Assembly (NCBI GenBank): GCA_945288535.1
Contig: CALYQQ010000001.1
Coordinates: 1-64,000 of the forward strand
DNA length: 64,000 nt
Source of the DNA: an uncultured Enterobacterales bacterium
Lineage (GTDB): Bacteria > Pseudomonadota > Gammaproteobacteria > Enterobacterales > CALYQQ01
Reading direction: 5' to 3'
The notes under the pieces are model-generated. The model searched no databases, was not told the DNA's origin, and saw only the letters and a program-made list of their open reading frames with translations. The position numbers were made by a program, and so were the translations under genes. Of the stretch, positions 1 to 3,954 are shown piece after piece. Every line of letters begins with the position of its first letter. Position 1 is the stretch's first letter.

Positions 1-114
1 TACGAATGTTACTTAAATCTGCCAAAGCGGGTCGGTGGTTATATGATTAAATCCCCGCATAGCAGGGTAACATTACATCACATTCAAATTTTAATATTTT
101 GGGCGCTTCAGTGA
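1..114 (+). CDS. C-terminal end of an unidentified protein (cut by window edge)
   Basis: Frame 1 is open from the window edge to a TGA at 112-114 and encodes 37 residues beginning YECYLNLPKRVGGYMIKSPH. The stop overlaps the GTG start of the next gene in a GTGA arrangement, typical of translationally coupled operon partners, and this is the main reason to believe the frame is real. I do not recognise the domain. In defence-type operons carrying a downstream HNH nuclease, the first gene is often an ATPase, so that is a guess for the missing part. Too little sequence is present to say more. Confidence 0.45.
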   Translation, partial: YECYLNLPKRVGGYMIKSPHSRVTLHHIQILIFWALQ

Positions 115-314
115 ATAAAATCACCATGAATACTTTCGGAAAAAGAGAAACTATTGGTGGTTATGCTCAAACATTATTAGATAAATTACAATCACGGTTT
201 GAAAAAGGTAAGCACGCAGAATCATTACTTAAAGAAATAGACCAAACATTGGGCGATTCGGTCGAAAAAATGTTGTTACTCAAAACGCTAAATGACAGGC
301 TGGAGGAGCAATAA
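111..314 (+). CDS. Small protein of unknown function, middle gene of HNH-type operon
   Basis: A 67-residue product if the GTG at 111 is used. That start overlaps the stop of the preceding frame, which favours it over the in-frame TTG at 99 or the ATG at 126. The protein is hydrophilic and probably helical, with an E/K/L-rich C-terminal half (KHAESLLKEIDQTL, MLLLKTLNDRLEEQ). There is no signal peptide or membrane segment. The broken HNH nuclease gene begins 33 bases downstream. I do not recognise the family. By position it is a small accessory subunit between an unknown upstream protein and a nuclease. Function unknown. Confidence 0.5.
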   Translation: MNKITMNTFGKRETIGGYAQTLLDKLQSRFEKGKHAESLLKEIDQTLGDSVEKMLLLKTLNDRLEEQ

Positions 315-346
315 TGCTTTTTGCTTATAAATAAGTTCCCCATACA

Positions 347-1367
347 ATGGATAAAATGCAGGAGTTTATCGATTTTATCTTTCTTGAGGTCTAGTGTAGG
401 CCTTCGACATATGGCACTTATAGCATGGCACTTTTCAATGCCAATCCAGAACTAAAACAAGTAATGAACGATTGTCACTTTAGTGATAGTAAATATGCTG
501 ATTTTTTTGCGAGCCATGTGGAGCAAATATATGTGTTATTTTCCCAACTAAACCCAACGACACTTTCACAATTACAAACATGGTATAGAAATAATAACAA
601 TATTGAACAAGTTTGTTCCAATGATCCGGCTACATCAATTGCCAAATATTCATGTTTATGTAATTTGCTCGCAAATAGTGATTTATATGAGAAACTCTCC
701 AGTTTTTTTAAGGAACTTTATAATAGCAAGTTATTAACCTTAAAAGTACTCAAAGATAAAATTGGTACTATTGATGAACACTATAAAGTATTTCGTAATC
801 GAAATTAGGATAACTAAGTGTCCATTTTGCGGTATTAATAGCATGAAAGGTTTTCATCATAGCTATCGTGACGCCTATGACCATTACCTACCTAAAGGTA
901 TTTATCCCTTCAACTCAATTAATTTTCGTAATCTAGTGCCAACTTGTCATGAATGCAATAGTTCTTATAAAACTCAAAAAGACCCATGCCATAATACTCA
1001 AGGTCGGCGCAAGGTTTTTTACCCTGATAATACCCAATCATATAACATAGAGTTAGCGATCAACTTAAAAAATAGAGATTGGCAAAATATTCAACCTGAT
1101 GATATTGATTTGATATTTGGCCCTGCCGTATTGAATGAAGAAATTGCAACATGGAAAGAAGCTTATGGAATGGAAGAACGTTATAAAGCCAAATGCTGTG
1201 CTGAAGACGATGGAAAAGATTGGATGGTTCAATTGCATGATGAATGGAAAAACAAAGGAAGAAATGTTCAAGAATTTATAGATATCCTAGCTACAAATAC
1301 CCAACGCTCACCTTATACTGATAACCATTTTTTAAAAAACTTTTTTAGAAGCATGGTTGCGAAGTAG
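347..1367 (+). pseudogene. HNH endonuclease gene broken by one stop codon and one frameshift
   Basis: The ATG at 347 opens a frame reading MDKMQEFIDFIFLEV, meets a TAG at 392-394, then continues in the same frame as CRPSTYGTYSMALFNANPEL to a stop at 806-808. The remainder lies in the +1 frame and carries a complete HNH core: CPFCG at 828, then DHYLPKG, FRNLVPTCHECNSSYK and a hydrophilic C-terminus ending at 1367. The two CxxC pairs bind zinc and the D-H-x-x-P motif is the metal-binding histidine region of HNH nucleases. The reading HYKVF...RITKCPFC shows the break just before the zinc site, near 800-810. Joined, the protein would be about 340 residues. Neighbouring genes suggest a phage-defence cassette. 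Either the gene is dead or two assembly errors fall in one gene; the independent nonsense codon argues for decay. Confidence 0.75.
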
Positions 1368-1381
1368 TTTGTTTAAAATAA

Positions 1382-1420
1382 CAAAAGAATTTATTAGTAT
1401 AACAAATTCTTTGTTTTTTA
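1382..1420 (+). terminator. Rho-independent terminator of the HNH operon
   Basis: AAAGAATTT (1384-1392) pairs perfectly with AAATTCTTT (1404-1412) across an 11-base loop and is followed by G and a run of T. It lies 15 bases after the HNH gene stop. Confidence 0.6.
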
Positions 1421-2544: not shown

Positions 2545-3954
2545 ATGAAAAAGACAAAAATTGTTTGTACTATCGGTCCCAAAACTGAATCTGAAGAAAT
2601 GTTAACCCAATTATTAAATTCGGGTATGAATGTTATGCGTTTAAACTTCTCTCATGGTGATTATGAAGAGCATGGTAATCGCATTAAAAACTTGCGTTCT
2701 ATTATGGCATCTACAGGTCGTATAGCAGCCATTTTGTTAGATACGAAAGGACCTGAAATCAGAACGTTAAAATTAGAAAATGGCAATGATGTTAGTTTGG
2801 TTGCAGGACAAACCTTTACATTTACCACTGATCAATCAGTTATTGGTAACAATGAGCGTGTTGCGGTGACTTATCCAGGATTTGCACTTGACTTACAAGT
2901 AGGTAATACCATTCTTGTTGATGATGGTTTAATCGCAATGGAAGTACAAAGCACAACCGATAATGAAGTTGTATGTAAAGTCTTAAATAATGGTGATTTA
3001 GGTGAAAATAAAGGTGTTAATTTACCTGGTGTTTCAATTAATTTACCTGCCCTTGCCGAAAAAGATAAACGCGACCTGATTTTTGGTTGTGAGCAATCAG
3101 TTGACTTTATTGCAGCATCATTTATTCGTAAACGTTCTGATGTACAGGAAATTCGTGAACACTTAAATGCACATGGTGGTAACAATATCCAAATTATCTC
3201 AAAGATAGAAAACCAAGAAGGTTTAGATAATTTTGATGAAATTCTGGAGATTTCTGATGGTATCATGGTTGCTCGCGGTGATTTAGGTGTTGAAATCCCT
3301 GTAGAAGAAGTTATTTTCGCACAGAAAATGATGATCGAAAAATGTAATCGTGTAGGTAAGCCGGTTATTACTGCAACACAAATGTTAGATTCTATGATCA
3401 AGAATCCACGCCCTACTCGCGCAGAAGCAGGTGATGTTGCGAATGCTATTTTAGACGGTACCGATGCAGTTATGTTATCGGGTGAAAGTGCTAAAGGTAA
3501 ATACCCTGTCGAATCAGTCCGTATTATGGCAACAATTAGTGAACGTACTGATCGTATTATGCCAAGTAAAGTCCAACTTATGGATAATGGCCAATTACGT
3601 ATTACCGAAGCAGTATGTTGCGGCGCAGTAGAAACAGCGGAAAAACTTCACGCTCCTCTTATTGTTGTTGCTACACGCGGTGGGAAATCGGCTAAAGCTG
3701 TACGGAAATACTTCCCAACGGCAACCATTTTAGCTTTAACCAGCAATGAACTGACTGCACGTCAACTTAGTTTAAGTAAAGGTGTTATTCCTCAACTAGT
3801 TGAAGAGCTTGCTTCTACAGATGATTTTTACCGGATCGGTAAAGAAGCTGCATTAAATAGTGGATTAGCTAAAAAAGACGATGTTGTTGTTATGGTATCA
3901 GGTGCATTAGTTGCTAGTGGTACAACAAATACTGCATCAGTTCATAAATTATAA
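2545..3954 (+). CDS. pykF: Pyruvate kinase I
   Basis: Converts phosphoenolpyruvate and ADP to pyruvate and ATP in the last step of glycolysis; cytosolic homotetramer. The 469 residues match the E. coli PykF length (470) and begin [19 protein letters not shown], the usual N-terminus. Visible signatures are the MRLNFSHG substrate loop, LDTKGPEIR, the catalytic-lysine segment [10 protein letters not shown], the metal-binding [12 protein letters not shown] and the TATQMLDSM loop. The C-terminal allosteric domain (from about residue 350) is complete. There is no strong ribosome-binding site, but the start agrees with the family. It is followed by lpp and an L,D-transpeptidase gene, as in enteric bacteria. 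The E. coli enzyme of this type is activated by fructose 1,6-bisphosphate. Confidence 0.97.

Follow-up and report, generated by a model that had tools for sequence, protein, structure and literature searches.

The window, a stretch of DNA of 64,000 nucleotides, comes from a draft genome of 2.52 Mb in 29 contigs that is 96.6% complete (G000), and its base 1 is base 1 of contig C1. By alignment, the window begins at a contig end and inside a gene of the DUF1493 family, of which the last 15 residues and the stop codon TAA (48–50) occupy positions 1–50 of the forward strand in frame 3. Bases 1–55 are all identical to the 55 bases at the end of contig C7, where a complete gene of the DUF1493 family (PF07377, E = 2e-19) ends in this stretch, and bases 3–79 share 88% identity with a copy on contig C13 in a pairwise alignment. 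The gene tail is followed by an intergenic stretch (51–71, forward strand), delimited by the sequence itself and by the alignment to C13, which holds an imperfect C-rich/G-rich hairpin (CCCCGC ATA GCAGGG). The similarity to the C13 copy runs up to about base 79, and the junction between the DUF1493 region and the remnant of an ATPase gene lies at about 72–79. Beyond the junction lie, on the same strand, the stump of the ATPase gene (72–314) and an HNH nuclease pseudogene (314–1367).

This genome has four or more whole or partial copies of a two-gene unit that encodes a predicted membrane protein of about 150 amino acids and a DUF1493 protein (window 1–50; C7:1–374, reverse strand; C13, about 85.6–86.0 kb; C1, about 192.4–192.9 kb). 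These units lie at or near three contig ends and may be the cause of the assembly breaks.

The ATPase stump and the HNH pseudogene

Positions 72–314 of the forward strand encode the C-terminal stump, about 80 amino acids long, of a restriction-system-associated AAA ATPase. In a six-frame search, bases 78–299 matched positions 493–566 of the 568 positions of the NCBIfam model TIGR04435 (E = 2.5e-21), and by tblastn residues 512–585 of an intact 596-residue ATPase aligned with bases 78–296 at 62% identity over 74 residues; against a Shewanella protein, the tail shows 55% identity overall in the aligned part. The stump scores 77.2 bits, below the family cut-off of 300 bits, because only this end of the model remains, and by this match it is a fragment of a TIGR04435 member and not a functional member. 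About 86% of the length of the ATPase is gone from the locus, including both Walker motifs, so that the part of a Septu PtuA-type ATPase that bears Walker A and B is absent from the window; the intact ATPases of relatives carry GPNGSGKS and LLDEPETHFNP. Full-length homologues in Escherichia coli, Kovacikia and Priestia are annotated as restriction system-associated AAA family ATPases. A profile search revealed no second TIGR04435 sequence anywhere else in the 96.6% complete genome.

This assignment alters the gene count at the left edge. The homology to the ATPase sets in at about base 72–78, in the same frame and upstream of GTG 111, and positions 111–314, which the earlier note had read as a small helical protein of 67 residues, are therefore part of the truncated ATPase and not a separate gene. 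As bases 1–50 in frame 3 encode the DUF1493 tail, frame 1 up to position 114 is without gene support, and the reading of it as an upstream protein of unknown function is wrong. The letters GTGA are present at 111–114 as described, but the coupled gene pair drawn from them is rejected, since the ATPase homology spans the putative start and frame 1 contains no supported gene. What had been taken for three genes amounts to one truncated gene (ATPase) and one broken gene (HNH).

Homology defines the HNH pseudogene (314–1367, forward strand) as running in frame 2 from ATG 314 to about 805 and then in frame 3 to the stop codon at 1365–1367. The ATPase stop codon (312–314) overlaps the HNH start codon (ATG, 314–316), and the order of ATPase followed by HNH is as in relatives. 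Read through from ATG 314, the product can be aligned over its whole length with intact proteins that have 352–366 residues, and its residues 1–332 share 49% identity with an intact relative of 366 amino acids (E = 1e-106), so the similarity is not due to chance. Three lesions interrupt the gene: an in-frame TAA at codon 7 (332–334), where all 31 intact relatives in the alignment have Tyr; an in-frame TAG at codon 27 (392–394), where all 31 have Trp; and a frameshift zone (790–815) between DEHYKVFRN in frame 2 and ITKCPFCG in frame 3, in which the tblastn segments break at 805 and 792. The TAG and the frameshift before CPFCG had been recognized previously, and both are confirmed; the TAA, counted from the homologous start ATG 314, is an additional stop that was absent from that description. 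The view that the nuclease is the broken part is correct for the HNH gene but incomplete, as most of the ATPase is lost and the restriction genes are missing from the locus.

The HNH core (816–985) is retained, with CPFCG ... AYDHYLPK ... YPFNSINF ... NLVPTCHECNSSYK kept as judged by conservation in the 31 relatives. Across the whole protein, and with positions that read X in the read-through excluded, the consensus residue is kept at 46 of the 47 positions that are at least 97% conserved among these relatives. Apart from the two stop positions, almost every invariant residue is thus retained, those of the complete HNH core among them, and this suggests that the decay of the HNH gene is recent. 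Searches of the HNH part against Pfam and NCBIfam gave no match above cut-off, the best NCBIfam model being TIGR02646 (retron HNH) with 17 bits against a cut-off of 52. The intact HNH protein matched no phage records, and hence there is no sign of phage carriage; four plasmid matches were obtained, one of them full-length. Between the HNH wreck and a pyruvate kinase gene lies a stretch of 1.2 kb (1368–2544) with a G+C content of only 24% and no convincing gene.

An artefact of assembly or sequencing, by which an operon that is intact in the living strain would appear broken through a contig edge and base errors, is improbable. The position of the window at a contig end and the 55 bases common to the end of C7 are signs of a repeat that breaks the assembly graph; however, the DUF1493/ATPase junction lies beyond this overlap and within one contig, and the genome has no other TIGR04435 sequence. 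The three lesions, moreover, fall within about 490 bases of one gene, whereas the neighbouring pyruvate kinase gene (2545–3954) has no stop.

The intact operon in relatives and the remaining restriction genes

A pattern scan of GTDB genomes identified 145 relatives, 80 of which were fetched. The scan was queried with four intact sequences and the window only, and its patterns favour close relatives, so the following counts describe this subfamily only. Among loci with enough upstream sequence, the ATPase lies directly upstream of HNH in 75 of 76, HsdS is found upstream in 70 of 71, HsdM in 61 of 62 and HsdR in all 56, which gives the gene order HsdR–HsdM–HsdS–ATPase–HNH. The operon occurs in Pseudomonadota, Cyanobacteria, Bacillota, Planctomycetota and others. 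The suggestion in the earlier note of an inactivated defence system with an intact form in relatives is supported by these loci, in which PtuA-like and HNH/PtuB-like genes lie directly behind type I restriction genes. At the window locus, the place directly upstream is taken by the DUF1493 gene tail instead of HsdR, HsdM and HsdS.

Type I restriction–modification (RM) operons with a TIGR04435 ATPase and an HNH gene are exemplified by those of Shewanella profunda (L051/L053) and E. coli strain 3045 (L048). These resemble the window in the ATPase C-terminus (55–62% identity), in the HNH protein (49%, full length), in gene order and in spacing; the window copy differs in being without HsdR, HsdM, HsdS and the greater part of the ATPase, and in the three lesions of its HNH gene. 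A partial DNA match was obtained in 85 of 5,426 complete E. coli genomes, and the three E. coli loci inspected have the order HsdM–HsdS–ATPase–HNH with no annotated HsdR adjoining and with conjugation-type genes beside them, so that the ATPase–HNH pair can travel without HsdR. The four-gene form is also found in Priestia, with a DUF2075 gene further upstream. Next to the E. coli four-gene form (L048 3485–9565, L137, L138) are an ArdC gene and T4SS/mobilization genes. In Acidithiobacillus marinus (L123 5008–8878), an insert of about 2 kb apparently divides the ATPase gene, which makes this a second example of a decaying module.

Restriction genes remain elsewhere in the genome. Contig C13 encodes an intact HsdR (73% identical to that of Shewanella), an intact HsdM (74%) and an HsdS of 400 codons; these genes lie near the contig end behind a DUF1493 gene and belong to the same lineage as the five-gene operon (C13:86582–92320; L135 1071–6821). 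No ATPase or HNH remnants were found by tblastn behind HsdS on C13. C13 and C1 represent either halves of one former operon or the remains of two. By eye, the sequence after the C13 HsdS looks degraded and includes EYDFLKKLIIEKLADGRL, a stretch similar to the extension seen at the C-terminus of other HsdS proteins, and a fragment with a Fic-like motif (HPFLDGNGR) is visible between the DUF1493 gene and HsdR (L135, about 850–1000).

The intact HsdR, HsdM and HsdS on C13 also bear on whether the pieces in the window could still function, namely whether translation of the 201-codon frame at 762–1367 from an internal start yields a product that is active by itself or together with HsdRMS from elsewhere in the genome. 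This frame is open, spans the whole HNH core and keeps nearly all of its invariant residues. Its product would, however, be without the approximately 160 N-terminal residues that are conserved in all relatives, no ATPase is left in the genome, and the PtuAB pairs tested need both proteins (PMC11555353, PMC13096335); we consider residual function quite unlikely. Recoding at the stops and the frameshift, with production of the full protein, is scarcely credible, since, well conserved as the residues around the lesions are, two different stops (TAA and TAG) and a frameshift would have to be recoded, none of them occurs in the 31 relatives aligned there and the partner ATPase is truncated as well.

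Interpretation and comparison with known systems

The window very probably holds the degraded 3′-end remnant of an HsdR–HsdM–HsdS–ATPase–HNH operon, in which the intact ATPase and HNH proteins probably act as a PtuAB-like effector pair within a type I RM operon; the locus is most likely a Septu/PtuAB-like module that belonged to a type I restriction operon and has been inactivated. Through a deletion or rearrangement, the sequence that follows a DUF1493 gene became fused to the final ~80 codons of the ATPase gene, after which the HNH gene gained two stop codons and a frameshift. As read from one draft assembly, the truncation of the ATPase and the stops and frameshift of the HNH gene mean that neither the ATPase stump nor the HNH product can work. 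Loss of the ATPase may have left the nuclease unregulated or useless, and inactivation of the nuclease would then have been favoured. The wreck itself is a routine pseudogene, and its value is as a pointer to an operon that is strikingly conserved in many phyla.

Intact ATPases of this family are hit by PADLOC's PtuA1 model (6.5e-53 and 4.9e-51), and their closest solved structures are PtuA, AAA family ATPase and retron I-A PtuA chains (E from 2e-5 to 7e-3). For the C-terminal part of the HNH protein in the window, the PADLOC models PDC-M01B (4e-13) and PDC-M62B (1e-12) outscore PtuB1 (5e-9), and each of the 31 intact HNH relatives is hit by PDC-M01B and PDC-M62B and, less strongly, by a PtuB1 model, with matches confined to the HNH core. 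Profile comparison of the HNH protein with solved structures, that of PtuB included, gave no meaningful match. When the intact protein was modelled with AlphaFold (mean pLDDT 85, falling to 60–84 in the HNH region), Foldseek and VIA-align yielded no convincing relative, a weakly informative result. The resemblance to anti-phage cassettes claimed at the outset holds in outline, though not for the gene anatomy proposed. The likeness to PtuB is limited to HMM matches to the HNH core, as solved PtuB was matched neither by sequence nor by fold.

PtuAB requires both the Walker motifs of its ATPase, PtuA, and the H-N-H motif of its nuclease, PtuB, and tRNA-Tyr is cleaved upon infection (PMC13096335); nicked DNA was reported for another Septu, and the target may vary (PMC11555353). 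By analogy, the intact pair is probably an ATPase-controlled nuclease effector: the ATPase would sense that the cell is infected or that the restriction complex has failed, and would then switch on the HNH nuclease, which would cut nucleic acid (tRNA or DNA) and so stop phage growth. PrrC has been cloned together with HsdR, HsdS and HsdM (PMC11555353), and the presence of DarTG2 inside a type I RM operon demonstrates that effector modules do occur in such operons (PMC12255303). The ATPase–HNH pair has a fixed place behind HsdRMS, which points to a connection with restriction like that of PrrC. A more tentative proposal, which we regard as possible though the less likely outcome, is that the five genes together make up one defence machine, with the PtuAB-like pair bound physically and functionally to HsdRMS. 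The pair might, for instance, be a guard that is set off by phage inhibition of type I restriction, similar to PrrC but equipped with another nuclease; the window would then record the loss of this pair with HsdRMS kept. Were the pair a backup weapon of this kind, standing guard over type I restriction, it would correspond to PrrC in a two-protein form, and a guard role would account for the association of PtuAB-like pairs with other defence genes.

In the literature searched, no experiments on any member of the operon were found, nor any report on the family name, TIGR04435 or the combination of HNH, hsdM, hsdS and AAA ATPase; a preprint on embedded defences (Payne et al., 2024, cited by PMC12255303) might describe the operon. 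The intact five-gene operon seems under-described in this literature, although its ATPase is already covered by an NCBI family model.

Septu (PtuA and PtuB), including the retron I-A effectors, shares with the operon the arrangement of an AAA/ABC-type ATPase followed directly by an HNH nuclease. In contrast to Septu, the pair described here is located in a type I RM operon, its nuclease has PDC-M01B and PDC-M62B and not PtuB as best HMMs, and the HNH protein is larger than PtuB (about 350–366 amino acids), with a helical N-terminal region of ~160 residues. Both halves also match, at the domain level, the PADLOC candidates PDC-M01 and PDC-M62 (ATPase A and HNH B; M01A/M62A and M01B/M62B), but these matches cover only the C-terminal half of the ATPase and the HNH core, and PtuA1 is a far better match for the ATPase. 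Compared by arrangement, PrrC of type I RM operons (EcoprrI, PrrC170) is likewise an ATPase-regulated nuclease effector in an hsd operon; PrrC, however, combines ATPase and anticodon nuclease in one protein, whereas the operon described here encodes two proteins and an HNH nuclease.
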